Assembly (NCBI GenBank): GCA_019456305.1
Contig: VRUD01000031.1
Coordinates: 2,744-40,937 of the forward strand
Origin: Cytophagales bacterium
GTDB taxonomy: Bacteria > Bacteroidota > Bacteroidia > Cytophagales > VRUD01
Length of the DNA: 38,194 nucleotides
Direction of reading: 5' to 3'
This document shows, piece after piece, positions 1,433 through 28,794 of this stretch. Under the pieces are notes generated by a model. The model was not told where the DNA came from. It did not search any database and was given only the letters and a program-made list of their open reading frames with translations. Position numbers and translations under genes: made by a program. The first letter of the stretch is position 1. Every line of letters begins with the position of its first letter.

Positions 1433-4057
1433 TTAATAATATTTCTCCCTAAAAAATGTCAAATAACTCTCCACATCTTTTGCCTGGTAAAATAAAGGAA
1501 AATTATCATCTGTGATCACAAATAGTTCATAATGAACATCTTTGTATTGTTTCAAGGGCGAATTATTTCCTTTATGGATGTTAAGATAATTTAGCGCTAA
1601 ATTTTTATTACTAAATTCTTTAACCATGACTATGAACAAAGTATCGTTTAAAATGATATGCTTTGTTTTTAGGGCATCTGTTTCATAATAGGTTGTGTTA
1701 TAATCAGAAAATTTAGTTAATATTTCATTATAAGACAAATTATCAGGAAATATTGCTACAAAAAAGTGTACTTTTTCAAGATCTTCAAAATAATTTATCT
1801 TCAATTTCTCTTCAATTTCTTCATTGACGACAGGGTTTCCTGAAATGTAATCGTTACAGGCTTTTAACAACTGTTTTGCGTAAGGGATCAAATTGCTTGA
1901 TTTATACGCTGTGATGAAGCTTATCAATGCATTTTTGTATCTCAACGTATTATGTGTTTTTCCCAAAATTATAGCTTTTAATAAGATGATCCTGTCTTCG
2001 AAGTCACTATCAGGATATTTTGACAGGATATCATCCAAGGAGGCATTTGCCTGTGCATAATGTCGTATTTCATATTGTAGGTATGCAGATTTATAAAGTA
2101 CTTTTACCTTTTCGTTGGCTATTTTATATACTTTCATGTAATCAGGATTTTTAATGATCTTTGCATAGAGTGACTTGGGAAATACACCGAGAATAATTTC
2201 TTTATACTTTTCAGACTGCTCTTCGTCAAGCTCTTTGTAAAGTATATGAAGTATATAGATCACTTCTACTGCATATTCATTATCAGGGAATCTTTTTAAG
2301 AGCTCTTTATAGGTTTTGATAGCATTTAGGGGTTCTTTGAGTTTTAAATTATAAATGTTTCCTAATTTATAATATGCATCTATGATCCTTTTATTAGATG
2401 CTTCAAGCTGCTCCACAGCGAAAGGGATGTTGTCATACATATCTTCTTTTTTTAGTCTTCCTTTACTGATGTCGTCTCCACTTTTTTTATTTGACATTGT
2501 ACCAGAACCCTTATTATCAGGATCATCAAACGATAGTAATGTTTGCTTATTAGACCTTCTCCAGTTATCTTCTAATTTGCGGTTTCTCCATTTTGTTAAA
2601 AACTCCTGTTGCCCAAGGCTCATTGCACCTGGATTATAAAAATACCATTTGCCGCTGCTGCCGGCAGATGTATTGGGGTTGTTAAAGTTTTGCCATTGTG
2701 ATCCCGATCCCGACATGTCGGGAGGGCTGTTTTGAGATTGTTGCTTCTTTTCAAGTTCTTTTTTCCTTTTTGCTTCATTTATTGCAATAATTTCATTAAG
2801 ATATTTACTCAGCTTTGTAGTATCCATTTTGGCTAAACGCTGCAAACTGTCTTCCGTATAAATAATATTTATTTGCTCTACGAATTCTTCAAGCACTTTT
2901 TGCCTTTTTACTATGGCTTCATAATCTTCAGCGTTTTTATCCAGCGTGGCGATGGTGCTATCATAATAAGCCTTGGCAAGCTCATATTTTTGCAGGTTTT
3001 CAAAATGAATTTCACCCATTTTTAAATATGAATATGCTTTTTGATTGGCATTAGCAGTGCTAGCCCTGATGGACTCTTTAAGATATGTAATGGCTTTGAG
3101 GATATTATTTTGCTTCAACTCAAACTGTGCCATTTCATAATATATCTTGTCTCTGTATTCAACGTTTTTACTATCCCTGAGCAGTTTTTTGAAGTACTTT
3201 TGTATTCTTTTGATATCATGTGTTTTTGCGAGTTCGTAAACTTGTGCCATATAAAGCCTGGCATAAAATGTCAACTCGTAAGGTGGGTTATTTTTGAGCG
3301 TTGACCTGTAATGGAAGTATGCCTCATCGTCAGATCCCAATTTTTGATTGATTTGGCCAATAATAAAATGTATTCTGCCCTTTTTCTCTCTCTTGCCAAT
3401 TAATGGTAAGGCTGAGGTTAAGTTTTTAATCACTTTTTCATAATCCGCTCTATTAAGGGGGGTAGGGGGGTGTTCAGCCAGCTTTTTGTGTAAGAAGGCT
3501 TTTGTCAGGTATAGCTCTCTGCTGTTATGTTTGTTTAATTTATCTTTTTCAATATGTTCGATTACCGCAAAGCAATTGTTGTATTCTTCAGTATGAATAA
3601 AAACTTGTATGAGCAAGATCAATGCCTGGTGTTTTGCATCATCATCTTCACTTTGGGTGTTCACATACTTAAAGGTGGTAATAGCATTTTCATAATCTTG
3701 CTTGTAGATCCTTGCCCTTCCTACAAGAATATAACAATCATCCACCCATTTGCTGTTCTTATGCCATTGGATAGGTAGTGAAGCTTTTTTGATGCAATCT
3801 TCAAGTAGGGGACTAATATTACTTATAGTGCCAGACTCAATTTCAGGAAATACCTCTAATACCCGGTTGAAATCATCATTGCGGTTATTATAAATAATTA
3901 CTTCAGCCTCTTTCATTTTTTCTTTGGCAATAAAATAAGCATTATACCTGGCAGTGGTATTATGATATGCCTTGCTGATCATGTTATGTCTTTCTGAAGA
4001 ACAGGAAAAAGCAAGAACTGAAATTAAGATAAAGTAAAATGAAAATTTATAAACCAT
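1433..4057 (-). CDS. sprE: T9SS lipoprotein PorW/SprE-like, TPR-rich
   Basis: 874 residues from the ATG at 4057; an upstream in-frame TTG at 4066 is possible but less likely. The N-terminus is a lipoprotein signal (MVYKFSFYFILISVLAFSC) with the lipid-accepting Cys at residue 19. It is followed by the family hallmark NTTARYNAYFIAKEKMKEAE. Many TPR-like helical pairs follow (about residues 80-390 and 550-740), split by a Pro/Ser/Asn/Gly-rich linker near 430-500. In Flavobacterium and Porphyromonas, SprE/PorW is an essential periplasmic-side lipoprotein of the type IX secretion machinery, and of gliding where that occurs. Length agrees with the family. The linker carries a 14-bp palindrome encoding DMSG (separate entry). 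The gene stands alone on this strand. Confidence 0.88.
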   Translation of the reverse strand: MVYKFSFYFILISVLAFSCSSERHNMISKAYHNTTARYNAYFIAKEKMKEAEVIIYNNRNDDFNRVLEVFPEIESGTISNISPLLEDCIKKASLPIQWHKNSKWVDDCYILVGRARIYKQDYENAITTFKYVNTQSEDDDAKHQALILLIQVFIHTEEYNNCFAVIEHIEKDKLNKHNSRELYLTKAFLHKKLAEHPPTPLNRADYEKVIKNLTSALPLIGKREKKGRIHFIIGQINQKLGSDDEAYFHYRSTLKNNPPYELTFYARLYMAQVYELAKTHDIKRIQKYFKKLLRDSKNVEYRDKIYYEMAQFELKQNNILKAITYLKESIRASTANANQKAYSYLKMGEIHFENLQKYELAKAYYDSTIATLDKNAEDYEAIVKRQKVLEEFVEQINIIYTEDSLQRLAKMDTTKLSKYLNEIIAINEAKRKKELEKKQQSQNSPPDMSGSGSQWQNFNNPNTSAGSSGKWYFYNPGAMSLGQQEFLTKWRNRKLEDNWRRSNKQTLLSFDDPDNKGSGTMSNKKSGDDISKGRLKKEDMYDNIPFAVEQLEASNKRIIDAYYKLGNIYNLKLKEPLNAIKTYKELLKRFPDNEYAVEVIYILHILYKELDEEQSEKYKEIILGVFPKSLYAKIIKNPDYMKVYKIANEKVKVLYKSAYLQYEIRHYAQANASLDDILSKYPDSDFEDRIILLKAIILGKTHNTLRYKNALISFITAYKSSNLIPYAKQLLKACNDYISGNPVVNEEIEEKLKINYFEDLEKVHFFVAIFPDNLSYNEILTKFSDYNTTYYETDALKTKHIILNDTLFIVMVKEFSNKNLALNYLNIHKGNNSPLKQYKDVHYELFVITDDNFPLFYQAKDVESYLTFFREKYY
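2709..2722. repeat. 14-bp perfect palindrome inside sprE
   Basis: CCCGACATGTCGGG is a perfect palindrome in the low-complexity linker of sprE and adds in-frame codons there. It resembles the TCCCGAGTACTCGGGA palindromes at 20243 and 27172 in its CCCGA/TCGGG ends. Confidence 0.7.
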
Positions 4058-4174: not shown

Positions 4175-5053
4175 ATGCCAAAGCAAAGAAAAACACTCTC
4201 TAATTGGTTAACGAATAGTTATTTACTGATCATTCGTAATAAGGAGAATTTTGCTGAAAAAACTACCATTAGTTTCAATTATGCAAAATTAATCGTTTTT
4301 GTGGTAATTTTAATCAGTATTTTGTCATTTATCAGCTTTTATTTAACAACCACTATTCTTGCAAAATGGTTTGATCCAAGATACGAACAAATTCAAACAA
4401 ACAAAAAGTTGTTCTTCTTATCTTTTGCCGTGGATTCATTGGCTGAAGAATTAAACAGAAGAGATCAGTTTATTATGAGCATTAAGAAAATGATTGATGG
4501 AGAATTTGATACATTAGAATCCGGTAATAGTCTGAGTTATGAATCTTATACATCTACATCTCCTGTTATTAAGGAGATTGATCTTGATTATGTATCTCCG
4601 GTAGATTCTCAATTAAGAAGGGAATTTGAAAATGAAAATTATGATCTGGTATCTTTTCAAACTTATGAGCAGCATTCACTCTCTGATATTTTCTTTTTTT
4701 TGCCTTTAGATGGTATTGTATCTTCTGGTTATGATTTAAAAAATGGCCATCAGGGTATAGATATTGTTGCAAAAGAAAATGAACCTGTAAAATGTACTGC
4801 TGATGGTACGGTTATTCTCTCCTCATGGACAGATGATTCAGGTAATGTGATTGCTGTGCAGCATCGAAGCAATTTAATATCAATCTATAAACATAATTCG
4901 GTTTTATTAAAAAAAGTTGGTAACTTTGTGCGGACTGGTGAAATAATAGCCATAATTGGAAATACTGGCGCACTTACTTCAGGCCCTCATTTACATTTTG
5001 AACTGTGGTTTGATGGGAGTACAGTAGATCCAGAAGAATTTATTTTATTTTAA
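4175..5053 (+). CDS. M23 family membrane-anchored metallopeptidase
   Basis: 292 residues from the ATG at 4175 (MPKQRKTLS). A short basic cytoplasmic tail is followed by one membrane segment (about residues 36-62, LIVFVVILISILSFISFYL), a periplasmic helical linker, and a C-terminal LytM/M23 domain. Zinc ligands are visible: H192 and D196 in HQGID and H274 in HLHFE (first His of the pair is 272). These enzymes cut peptidoglycan cross-links or, when membrane-anchored, shape the wall locally. The bactofilin gene follows after 67 bp. M23 peptidase/bactofilin pairs act together in cell-shape control in several bacteria (for example Caulobacter LmdC with BacA, Helicobacter Csd1 with CcmA), so a scaffold-plus-hydrolase module is likely here. 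Confidence 0.85.
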   Translation: MPKQRKTLSNWLTNSYLLIIRNKENFAEKTTISFNYAKLIVFVVILISILSFISFYLTTTILAKWFDPRYEQIQTNKKLFFLSFAVDSLAEELNRRDQFIMSIKKMIDGEFDTLESGNSLSYESYTSTSPVIKEIDLDYVSPVDSQLRREFENENYDLVSFQTYEQHSLSDIFFFLPLDGIVSSGYDLKNGHQGIDIVAKENEPVKCTADGTVILSSWTDDSGNVIAVQHRSNLISIYKHNSVLLKKVGNFVRTGEIIAIIGNTGALTSGPHLHFELWFDGSTVDPEEFILF

Positions 5054-21512: not shown

Positions 21513-23363
21513 GTGAACGCAGCCCTAATCACCATCATAGCCTTTGTCTGCTTGTTTCTTGGCTACCGCTTTTATGCCCGCTATATAGCTGTAAAAATAT
21601 TCAGAACTGAAAGCAAAGAAGCCGAAAAAGAGGTGATGCCTTCAGCAGCTTTGCGGGATGATGTAGATTATTTGCCAACCAACAAGTTTGTTTTGTTTGG
21701 CCATCATTTTTCATCTATTGCAGGCGCTGCACCGATTTTGGGCCCTGCAATAGCGATCGTCTGGGGTTGGCTGCCGGCTTTGCTGTGGGTGGTTGTAGGA
21801 GCAATTTTTATGGGCGCTGTACATGATTTTGGCGCCCTGGTTTTATCCGCCCGTAATAAAGGCAAATCCATCGGGGTGATCACCGAAGAGATGATTGGAA
21901 AGCGATCTAAATTCCTTTTCCTGGTAATAATATTCCTTTTGGTCTTTATCGTGCTGGCGGTTTTTGCTTATGCCATCGCTTACCTTTTTGTCCTTTATCC
22001 GGGATCTGTCATCCCGATTAATTTTGAAATTATTGTTGCCGTGCTGATAGGACGGTGGGTTTATAAACGAAAAGGGAACCTGCTCATTCCTTCATTGATT
22101 GCATTAGTCTTACTTTATGCTATGATCTATATTGGATATTTATATCCAGTCAGATTGCCGGAATATCTATGGTTTGGCGGCTCAGAAGTATTGACCTGGA
22201 TCGTATTTTTAATGATCTATGGGTTTATAGCTTCCACGCTGCCGGTTTGGGTACTTTTGCAGCCAAGGGATTATATCAATTCGCATAAATTAATCATAGG
22301 CCTGGCGGTTATTTACCTTGCAATCTTTATTGCCCAACCTGTAATAGATGCGCCTGTTATAAATTTCACAGAAAATCCTAATCCCCAGCCCTGGTTTCCC
22401 TTTTTGTTTATTACGATCGCATGCGGAGCTATCTCAGGGTTTCATGCACTGGTAGCTTCCGGTACATCTTCTAAACAATTAAAAAACATAAAAGATGCCC
22501 GGTACGTGGGTTACGGAGCCATGATGGGTGAAGCCGGACTGGCAATCGCAGCCACTATTGCCGTAGCAGCAGGATTTGCAAATGCTGAAGCATGGCAGCA
22601 CCATTATATTGACAATTTTGAACATGCTGTTAGCTTAAAAAGCAAAATAGAGGCTTTTGTGCTGGGTACATCCAGTTTTCTTTCAGAGCTAAAAATGTTT
22701 CAATATTTAGCAGGTAACAATGTACAAAACCTGACAGCGGTATTTGTGTCTGTTTTGGTGATCAGCTTTGCAGCCACGTCTCTGGATACCGCTACCCGTA
22801 TCCAGCGTTATATAATTGGAGAAATTGGAGAGGGCTTGTTGAGATGGAAGATGGGTGATGGAAGATGCCCGCCTGCCAAAACAGAGTGGCGGGCAGGGAT
22901 GATGGAAAAGGGCAACTTATGCCAAAGAGTCTTGCGGCTGGGACAAATCTTTAGCAAGTATATAGACAGATCGTTGGAATTTTTAGCAAAAAACAGGTAT
23001 TTACAGGCATTTATCGCGGTTTTGTTATCTTTTCTCCTGGTCATTAGTGATGGAGGTGGTAAGGGGGGGCTGAATCTTTGGCCGCTTTTTGGCGCTACCA
23101 ACCAAATGGTAGGAGCGCTTACCTTATTGGTGCTTTCGGTGTGGCTATTGAGAAAAAAAATAAATGCAAGCGCCACTTTAATTCCCATGGTCTTTATAAC
23201 TGTGGTCACTTTTTTAGGGACAATGGATAATATTTTCAATTACGTTGATACACAAAAGTGGCTGCTTGCAGGAATAGCTTCTGTTATTGGCATTTGCCAG
23301 GTGTGGATCATTGGGGAGGCAATCGTTGTGTTAAAAAGAGAGTTTAAGCATATAACTTCGTAA
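21513..23363 (+). CDS. CstA-family transporter (carbon starvation protein)
   Basis: 616 residues from a GTG at 21513. It is strongly hydrophobic with many membrane helices. CstA signatures include [10 protein letters not shown], the [20 protein letters not shown] stretch, [46 protein letters not shown] and [11 protein letters not shown]. CstA proteins take up peptides and/or pyruvate with protons when carbon is scarce. Between helices near the C-terminus an unusual hydrophilic stretch (about residues 446-470, [20 protein letters not shown]) is encoded by a palindromic repeat and is not typical of the family. A heptamer array begins right after the stop codon. Confidence 0.9.
22868..22898. repeat. 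CCCGCCTGCC-N10-GGCGGGCAGG unit inside cstA
   Basis: CCCGCCTGCC (22868-22877) and GGCGGGCAGG (22888-22897) enclose 10 bases. CCCGCC can pair with GGCGGG, or CCTGCC with GGCAGG. The same layout is at 25680-25709 with different middle bases. Short ATGGAAGATG-like repeats flank it. Confidence 0.8.
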
Positions 23364-23365
23364 TG

Positions 23366-23544
23366 GGCAGTTGGCAGTCGGCAGTTGGCAGTTGGCAGTT
23401 GGCAGTTGGCAGTCGGCAGTTGGCAGTTGGCAGTTGGCAGTCGGCAGTTGGCAGTTGGCAGTTGGCAGTTGGCAGTTGGCAGTTGGCAGTTGGCAGTCGG
23501 CAGTTGGCAGTTGGCAGTCGGCAGTCGGTAGTTGGCAGTTGGCA
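23366..23544. repeat. Heptamer tandem array (GGCAGTT/GGCAGTC), ~25 copies
   Basis: About 179 bp of near-perfect 7-base units, GGCAGTT with scattered GGCAGTC and one GGTAGTT. Because 7 is not a multiple of 3 and the unit has no stop, all six frames are open, giving spurious peptides (LAVGSWQ on +, QLPTANC on -). Single units recur at 26278-26330 and 27146-27170. It begins immediately after the cstA stop codon. Confidence 0.97.
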
Positions 23545-23617
23545 AGAACAGTGATAGGTGATCAGTTATTAGGTTATTAGGGGTTATTAGGCTAAATAAC
23601 TCAATAATTCAATAACT

Positions 23618-26010: not shown

Positions 26011-26200
26011 TAACTTTATGTAAATGGTTAAAAACAGTTAATAGCGGTTAATAATGGTTAATATCGGTTACTTTTTCATATGCTTAATCTTGAAAAAAAG
26101 GAGCATATTGCAAAAAAGCAGTGTTTTAAGCAACCGTTGTTAACTGTTGTTAACTGTTATTAACTGTTATTAACTGCTATTAACTTTATGTAAATGATTA
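26011..26200. repeat. Inverted decamer-arm element with flanking direct repeats
   Basis: Left arm 26021-26070 is five 10-base units ending GGTTA/AGTTA (for example ATAGCGGTTA); right arm 26131-26180 is five units of TAACTGTTAT type, the reverse complement. The 60-base middle has its own ATATGCT/AGCATAT stem. A 20-base near-identical direct repeat (TAACTTTATGTAAATGRTTA) lies at 26011-26030 and 26181-26200. A TATCTTTG promoter-like box at 25985-25992 could transcribe it as a leader of the PCMT gene. Confidence 0.85.
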
Positions 26201-26269: not shown

Positions 26270-26286
26270 GAAATAAGCAGTTGGCA

Positions 26287-27093
26287 ATGGGCAGTTGGCA
26301 ATATTGCATACTGTCAACTGCCTATTGTTTACTGCTTTTTTGCCTGCTGTTTTTCCAAATTAGCTGTAATTTAAATATTGATAACTATAAGGAAGATTCA
26401 AAATCTACAGCCACAGCAACTGCTGCTTCCCTTGACACTTTCCCGGCTTTTGAATGGTGGCGCTTAGAAGCCAGAAAGATGGTAAAAACCCAGATTTCCG
26501 ATCGTGGCGTCAAAGACAAGGCGCTCCTTGAGGTTATGAGAAACACGCCCCGTCATCTTTTTGTACCGAAAGAATTAGAAAAAAGCGCATACATTGATAG
26601 CCCTTTGCCGATAGATGAACAGCAAACAATTTCCCAGCCATATATTGTAGCGTTAATGACTGAATTGCTGCAACTGAAAGGAAATGAAAAAGTTCTGGAA
26701 ATAGGTACAGGCTCAGGATACCAGGCGGCAATATTAGCTCAATTGACCGGGAAGGTTTATACCATTGAATTAATTAAGTCATTGGCTGAAAGCGCTAAAG
26801 CGTTGTTGGACAGGTTGGGTTATGAAAATGTAATCGTAAAATGGGGTGATGGTTATAAAGGTTGGCCAGAAGAAGCGCCTTTTGATTGTATTATTGTTAC
26901 GGCTGCCCCTGAAACTGTGCCCCAGGAATTAATTAAACAATTGAAAAATGGCGGGCGCTTAGCCATACCCGTTGGTGTATATTTCCAGGAATTATTGCTG
27001 ATCACAAAAAATAAGGAAGGCATAAAAAAGGAAAGCATTATTCCTGTGCGTTTTGTTCCAATGGTACATCCCCCTGCTAAAAATAAAAATTAA
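26287..27093 (+). CDS. pcm: Lipoprotein-type protein-L-isoaspartate O-methyltransferase
   Basis: 268 residues from the ATG at 26287; an upstream in-frame ATG at 26194 would add 31 residues made only of repeat sequence. The N-terminus has a hydrophobic run (YCLLLFCLLFFQISC) ending in a Cys at residue 27, probably a lipoprotein signal, although Gln at -3 is not ideal. The enzyme follows: FVPKELEKSAYIDSPLPI, QTISQPYIVALMTELL, AdoMet loop LEIGTGSGYQAAILAQL, and the WGDGYKGWPEEAPFDCIIVTAA stretch. PCMT repairs isoaspartyl residues in aged proteins. A periplasmic or membrane-bound form would act on envelope proteins. The signal region is encoded by GGCAGTTGGCA-type repeat units in inverted arrangement. 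Confidence 0.88.
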   Translation: MGSWQYCILSTAYCLLLFCLLFFQISCNLNIDNYKEDSKSTATATAASLDTFPAFEWWRLEARKMVKTQISDRGVKDKALLEVMRNTPRHLFVPKELEKSAYIDSPLPIDEQQTISQPYIVALMTELLQLKGNEKVLEIGTGSGYQAAILAQLTGKVYTIELIKSLAESAKALLDRLGYENVIVKWGDGYKGWPEEAPFDCIIVTAAPETVPQELIKQLKNGGRLAIPVGVYFQELLLITKNKEGIKKESIIPVRFVPMVHPPAKNKN

Positions 27094-28578: not shown

Positions 28579-28660
28579 GACATGGATTACCACCGAGAAA
28601 TCGGGGCAGGCACAGATGATAATACTTAGTTGCAAAAGTAATAGTAATTATAGTTTTTTC

Positions 28661-28756
28661 GGTTAATAGGCAGTTAATAGCAGTTAAAAACGGCTGCAAT
28701 GGAAATCCCATTTCAAAAAGTAACCGGTATTAACCGGTATTAACCGATATTAACTG
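28661..28756. repeat. Second inverted decamer-arm element
   Basis: Left arm 28661-28694 has GGTTAATAGG, CAGTTAATAG, CAGTTAAAAA; right arm 28721-28756 has TAACCGGTAT twice, TAACCGATAT and TAACTG, the reverse-complement type. The middle is about 26 bases. It is the same design as 26011-26200 with fewer units. It lies between the site-2 protease gene and the convergent DUF3276 gene. Confidence 0.8.
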
Positions 28757-28794
28757 AATTATTGTTTAAATACTCTTTATTATGAAACTTAGTA

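Follow-up and report, generated by a model that had tools for sequence, protein, structure and literature searches.

A decamer-armed intergenic element in a Cytophagales genome, read as a mini-copy of a dispersed S23-gene-bearing element

The element and its neighbours

Two inverted arms of 10-bp units (GTTAAYANNR) are present at 28660-28757 of the window, the whole 38,194-nt stretch of DNA that was analysed. They are flanked by convergent genes for an M50 protease (PF02163) and a DUF3276 protein (PF11680). A decamer-arm element between a site-2 protease gene and a DUF3276 gene had been proposed in a first-pass annotation, and the units do lie at the positions claimed, with both neighbours identified by their Pfam matches. 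On the + strand the GTTAA units start at 28662, 28673 and 28683, spaced by 11 and then 10. Three inverted decamers, at 28725-28754, run into GGTTAC on the minus strand. The TAA stop that ends the core sits within the terminal arm motif GTAACC (Table 1). This protein-coding remnant is absent from the first-pass annotation.

Chance is a poor explanation for the units. The two-unit pattern GTTAATANNNGTTAATA, with at most one mismatch, matches nine times in the window compared with a mean of 0.05 in shuffles of the window, and all nine matches lie inside the two elements that the window contains. Homology of the second element continues beyond its right arm to 28797 by way of a flank held in common with copies on contigs C24 and C32 of the same genome. 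About 40 nt outside the arm are common to these three copies, and the inner 22 nt, with up to two substitutions, are also found in the copy on C57 and in six places of a Bacteroidetes genome (G391, see below). The DUF3276 ORF takes its TAG stop from this outer flank. An Rfam scan of the window alone found a tRNA as the only match, and none on the element.

Table 1. Coordinates of the decamer-armed elements and their parts in the window
Feature	Position	Strand	Basis
Left arm, three GTTAA units	28660..28691	+	Unit starts read from sequence
Terminal half-unit GGCTGC (other B copies: GGTTGC)	28692..28697	+	
Core: final eight codons and stop of an S23/IVP-type gene, QWKSHFKK-stop	28697..28723	+	Comparison with intact ORF of L164
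Terminal half-unit GGTTAC (+ strand reading GTAACC)	28720..28725	-	
Right arm, three decamers: GTTAATATCG, GTTAATACCG, GTTAATACCG toward core	28725..28756	-	
Outer flank common to copies on C24 and C32	28754..28797	-	Sequence match
First window element, subfamily A, same family but different core	26026..26184	+	

Repeats of another kind are also found in the window. Tandem repeats of the GGCAGTTGGCA type (23363-23554) follow a gene that ends at 23363, and a similar stretch at about 26280-26330 lies within the N-terminal coding region of a PCMT ORF.

Two subfamilies in the source genome

The first-pass annotation suspected a family and called for a genome-wide comparison of elements. The family is strongly supported. 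A three-unit pattern with up to three mismatches, scanned over the 4.25 Mb genome, gave 34+57 matches, and the reversed control pattern gave 0+0. By our own grouping the matches fall in about 23 places, some of which have a single arm.

Two subfamilies are prominent among the copies. Subfamily A has nine copies with pairwise identities of 97.3-100% over the left arm and core, and a tenth, diverged copy on C40 (82%). Near-identical copies at unrelated sites indicate a recent spread of A in this genome. In one A copy, on C38 (L019 2809-3148), the right arm has grown to 24 decamers or more, interrupted by a masked stretch. Subfamily B includes the window element and has copies on C31, C57, C113, C17 (two, adjacent), C24 and C32. 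The number of units before the core varies from two (C57) through three (C113 and the window) to four (C24), and the second arm is absent from the copies on C24 and C32.

This division changes how the pair of elements in the window is seen. The element had been called a second copy of the first design. They do share a family, but the orientation is opposite and the subfamily and core are different. Local duplication, which two copies 2.6 kb apart might suggest, does not hold, because one is A-type and the other B-type. The units are indeed more alike within the arms of the second element. However, this is partly inherited, as the copies on C57 and C113 hold units of the same kind, and partly reflects one extra decamer in comparison with C57 (three versus two). 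Local homogenisation draws a little support from the varying unit number, but most of the likeness between units is subfamily sequence.

The ends of the A copies (window 26015-26026 and 26185-26196; L009-L022) have a pattern of their own. ATG precedes GTTAA in 11 of 11 rows and ATGTAAATG does so in six of the 11, whereas TTTATGTAA follows the right arm in three. In L015 the end of a right arm is joined to a left arm via TTTATGTAAATG. Such ends look as if a head-to-tail junction had been cut at variable positions. A check for target duplication found that A copies have the common TTTATGTAA beside one or both ends and not a repeat specific to each site. No constant target duplication was recognised, and the empty sites of the relative G395 (see below) are too diverged to define ends.

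The same arms in other phyla

In an order-level scan with the exact three-unit pattern, one of 390 genomes matched, and this was the source genome itself, which alone represents its genus and family. A scan of genome contigs returned ten records. Five have real elements, namely those of Ratteibacteria STD1_7 (L113), Bacteroidetes CG23 32_9 (L114, L118, L119) and bacterium KR13_S3.mb.88 (L116). The other five (L110, L111, L112, L115, L117) have a single match without arms and were not counted. Whole-genome counts of the exact pattern are 89 in G390 (Ratteibacteria), 36 in G391 (CG23) and 38 in G392 (KR13), with 0 for the reversed controls. Matches occur in three of seven genomes of the phylum of G390 (G394 by one match only) and in four of six of the phylum of G392 (G401 by three matches). 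The same arms are found in G390, G391, G392, G395, G400 and G402. The lists for the phyla of G390 and G392 do not overlap and the Bacteroidetes are added to them, so the element occurs in at least three phyla.

Possible viral members were rejected. The pattern scan gave three viral contigs, but the stretches show direct repeats without inverted partners. Protein scans found no relative on viral contigs and none on plasmids at E 1e-5.

The usual form in Ratteibacteria has about four decamers and a half-unit on each side, convergent, around a short AT-rich core. G+C-rich hairpins of the CCCGCC..GGCGGG or CTGCC..GGCAG type lie inside the decamer arms of several of these elements (L159, L161 at 4447-4573, L165, L173, L176, L285, L287, L288 at 3208-3341, L289 and L292), as if a second small palindrome preferred decamer arms as its target.

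An S23-type gene between the arms

The core is about 400 bp long in a few elements. One of them (L164, on contig C65 of G390) has a core ORF for a 139-aa protein, the ATG of which lies in the innermost decamer and the TAA inside GTAACC. The ORF is a member of the S23 / 23S_rRNA_IVP family. It passes the curated cut-offs of PF05635 (64.6 bits, cut-off 33.8) and TIGR02436 (54.6 bits, cut-off 24), matches PDB 2gsc by sequence (E 1.6e-5), and is modelled (pLDDT 91.6) with a four-helix fold. The model compares with 2gsc at Z 17.6 (rmsd 1.4 over 114 residues), with 2rld at 15.1, with the phage Avd 4dwl at 13.7 and with 8ub7 at 13.4, while many unrelated helical bundles are listed at lower Z (up to 11.8).

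G395, a second Ratteibacteria species, carries this element at the matching site (contig C94), and its ORF shares 89% identity with that of G390 over 130 codons, counting the stop. The dN/dS between G390 and G395 is 0.045 (dS 1.43, dN 0.064, 129 codons). The S23 ORF is under purifying selection. The G395 ORF starts further inside, and upstream of this start the sequence alignable with G390 is broken by a TGA. Broken S23 relatives, in pieces 59-75% identical, lie between the arms in G392:C62 and G391:C4. The ORF has the same position and orientation between arms in three phyla.

How closely are S23 genes and arms associated? A PF05635 search gave 46 matches in four genomes (G391 18, G000 15, G392 8, G390 5) and no match in 14 control genomes. 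Of the 44 matches inspected, 41 lack any decamer array within 500 bp; L215, which is one of these, has an array about 0.8 kb away. The remaining three are armed on both sides and are all element-type: L223, and L230 and L236, which are two pieces of one gene. The other two matches, on G391:C4, are also element-type, one armed on both sides and the other with sequence available on one side only. Two further ORFs, on G400:C35 (74%) and G402:C42 (45%), are on contigs without a match to the strict pattern. The source genome has no intact element-type S23 ORF by protein search, in which the best match has 25% identity (E 9e-7).

What the source genome does have is remnants. In the B cores of the window, C24, C57 and C113 the frame that ends at the arm TAA reads QWKSHFKK-stop. 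The C17 copy reads LYKLDREGKWKTRFKK-stop and the C32 copy WKTRFKK-stop, and the intact gene ends in GQWKSRFKK-stop. Codons of the remnants and the intact gene differ at third positions too. The protein search picked up the C17 copy (46% over 37 residues, E 0.0047), but not the eight codons of the window. The A cores retain only MKK-stop or IKK-stop, which alone is no proof of descent. Since the S23 3' end is kept in its core, the window element consists of two arms and the final eight codons of the gene, and a reading as an internally deleted mini-copy of an S23-bearing element suits it best.

A conserved motif in arms that match each other less than expected

In 216 units, taken from arms whose partner arm alone carries the ascertaining match, positions 1-4 and 7 have a single base in at least 98% of cases and position 5 in 95%, compared with 46, 58, 34 and 66% at positions 6, 8, 9 and 10. 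The parser favours the motif, which makes these percentages upper estimates. The seven sites shared by G390 and G395 provide a second view. With the motif and variable labels taken from the G390 copy, 15 of 313 motif positions differ compared with 81 of 198 variable positions, and 223 of 914 other positions. In three of the pairs (L161 at 1095, L167 and L176) the variable positions are about as different as in unrelated elements (0.60 by a rough parser). The other four pairs have differences at 11 of 180 motif and 34 of 116 variable positions. The motif is kept while neighbouring positions drift.

If the arms were selected to pair with each other, opposite units should match. This was assessed with elements oriented by EM and calibrated by re-paired nulls, leaving out one-armed or badly broken elements. 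Of 37 parsed elements (31 Ratteibacteria, 6 KR13), 33 were above the score limit and 29 of these were well formed, and the 23 from Ratteibacteria were used. At the 368 variable positions compared, opposite units agree 99 times, fewer than the 141.4 in shuffles (z -5.3), and none of 300 re-paired null runs was as low. Positions 6 (20 of 92 matches compared with 33.9 expected), 9 and 10 are under expectation, whereas position 8 is no different. Covariation does not support an RNA stem, as opposite matches are rarer than chance and not compensatory. The covariation between left and right arms that the first-pass annotation would expect runs the other way. We read this as arms that avoid a long perfect hairpin and a motif that is kept for another reason, most simply for a putative DNA-binding protein.

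Occupied and empty sites

The flanks of 30 G390 elements were sought in G395 (0.95 Mb of contigs plus some further stretches), and ten could not be placed. Of the 20 comparable sites, seven are filled (one of them L164), 12 have no decamer units and L166 is ambiguous; gain and loss cannot be told apart from two genomes, and presence or absence between two species could reflect loss. A crude ORF caller placed none of 57 elements within an ORF of at least 80 aa. Forty-two are between co-directional genes, eight between divergent and three between convergent genes, and four are at contig edges. Among the 21 co-directional cases of G390, 20 have the upstream stop either in the first units of the element or no more than 22 bp away from it, and in eight of the 21 the outermost GTTAA provides this stop as its TAA. 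Tight spacers alone may explain this proximity.

Some shared sites are more complicated. At the G395 site of the L174 element (L283 3244-4763) a single arm is followed by some 1.5 kb that contains two ORFs, one of which resembles an HNH endonuclease by a motif recognised by eye. The same-site arms of L167 and L291, L161 (1095) and L288 (5152), and L176 and L282 are as different as unrelated ones, and the other arm of L291 resembles, by eye, an arm of L167. In-place inversion or replacement is possible at these pairs, with unit registers too messy for a claim of inversion.

What the element might be

The window element is genuine and not a product of chance, and it belongs to a widespread family. 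It is probably a non-autonomous mini-copy of a dispersed element that has an S23 gene between inverted decamer arrays, the arms of which would be putative protein sites. The full-length form would consist of an S23 four-helix-bundle gene set between an array of about four GTTAAYANNR decamers plus a half-unit and the same array in inverted form. An internal deletion would have removed all but the final eight S23 codons from the window copy. With their 10-bp phasing, the arms could present arrays of double-stranded DNA sites on one helix face, read by a protein. The simplest candidate for this reader is the S23-type protein itself, because a solved S23 relative is a homopentamer according to PMC4990558 and each arm has about five GTT sites. 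The element would spread into intergenic spacers, and hairpin formation by the arms would be a liability that copies avoid. Movement by reverse transcription with an Avd-like helper might be one option. In the cores read between the arms, no transposase, reverse transcriptase or template/variable repeats were seen. The genome with the recent A copies has no intact element-type ORF, and this counts against the S23 protein as the mover.

We infer an IVS-like selfish element that lives outside rRNA, with arms that are putative protein-binding arrays, perhaps for an S23 ring. A bolder proposal is that one S23 pentameric ring reads about five phased GTTAA sites per arm, and that a new class of selfish repeats has the S23/IVP proteins as its sequence-specific partners. 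This is tentative and, on balance, rather unlikely. If true, rRNA intervening sequences would be a special case of this class that landed in rRNA genes, and the repeat system would be selfish and, in Ratteibacteria, partly maintained.

Could the arms act as RNA instead? They might form an intercistronic or 3' hairpin that stabilises mRNA like REP/BIME, or an RNase III site like rRNA IVS. Predicted single-strand folds are strong whichever strand is taken (z from -4.4 to -7.6 in seven folds), as expected of any inverted repeat, and the prevalence of co-directional neighbours (42 of 57) would suit a transcribed structure. S23 relatives are also found in hairpins of rRNA that RNase III cuts, as PMC4990558 describes. 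However, opposite units match less often than in shuffled arms, even at position 6, which would lie within the helix, and this avoidance of pairing also speaks against excision by RNase III as in rRNA IVS. Furthermore, A-C oppositions outnumber G-U (51 versus 30) on the transcribed strand of 14 co-directional elements, and the window element has no match to an Rfam family. The P-type arm is downstream in 12 of the 14. Both counts were made post hoc, with p values of 0.03 for the A-C excess and 0.01 for the arm placement. An RNA element is improbable in our view. Slippage-born simple tandem repeats that became inverted by chance would account for the variable unit number and the long C38 array, but have a negligible probability given nine matches against a shuffle mean of 0.05, an inverted architecture repeated in several phyla and conserved motif positions.

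Two further explanations accept the arms as DNA but assign them differently, and we give each a low probability. One is that they are host-owned regulatory or chromosome-organising arrays (like parS, matS or operators), for which the S23 gene and its sites were domesticated, the copies being retained because they serve the host. The conservation of the motif at shared sites (15 of 313 versus 81 of 198) and the S23 element kept at one place in G390 and G395 with a dN/dS of 0.045 are in keeping with this. What does not fit is that the relative lacks the element at 12 of 20 comparable sites, that identical A copies have burst recently in the source genome, and that this genome is without an intact element-type ORF. 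The same absence would suit the other explanation, that these are MITEs of an ordinary transposon with its transposase elsewhere and the S23 gene a captured passenger, as would short inverted-arm copies at many sites. Against it, the S23 3' end is at the same place in Bacteroidetes cores, the ORF has one position and orientation in three phyla, and the cores read hold no transposase gene between the arms. An S23-bearing element with deleted mini-copies remains the preferred reading.

Relation to known systems

No function is known for S23/IVP proteins according to PMC4990558, and PMC11270868 calls them functionally uncharacterized. The elements tie an S23/IVP gene to a specific, conserved and repeated DNA sequence in several phyla. 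This gives the family a testable partner sequence and turns the question of S23p function into a simple binding test. It also makes mini-copies recognisable outside rRNA, where they resemble anonymous repeats. A literature search, with most subscription papers and preprints outside its scope, found no description of decamer-armed S23 elements.

One relative in structure is Avd of the diversity-generating retroelements, which the available text of PMC10053308 describes as essential to retrohoming. By model comparison Avd has the same four-helix fold as the S23 protein of the element. However, sequence identity is 5%, and no reverse transcriptase or template/variable repeat was seen between decamer arms in the cores read.

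In their dispersal the decamer copies are like MITEs, which are also small and non-autonomous, with inverted ends, near-identical copies at many sites and an origin by internal deletion. The B cores, which keep the S23 3' end, fit a derivation of this sort from a larger element. In contrast to MITEs, the larger relatives that were read encode an S23 protein and not a transposase, the ends are arrays of 10-bp direct units, and no target duplication was recognised. REP/BIME sequences, which are associated with RAYT, are likewise palindromic intergenic repeats, many of them between co-directional genes. However, their motif is different, and the full decamer form carries S23 and not a Y1 transposase.

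Short rRNA IVS forms without an ORF exist. The long form has an S23/IVP ORF between complementary ends, and this arrangement is also seen in G390:C65 and G395:C94. The accessible text of PMC4990558 describes the rRNA IVS with S23p / 23S_rRNA_IVP, for example in Coxiella burnetii, as likewise short and selfish-looking, with complementary ends and an S23-family ORF. The Coxiella IVS of 428 nt given there is similar in length to the ORF-bearing decamer copies. However, rRNA IVS lie inside 16S or 23S rRNA genes, whereas the window copy is outside them and decamer copies sit between protein genes, at tens per genome, with ends that are phased arrays avoiding perfect pairing.
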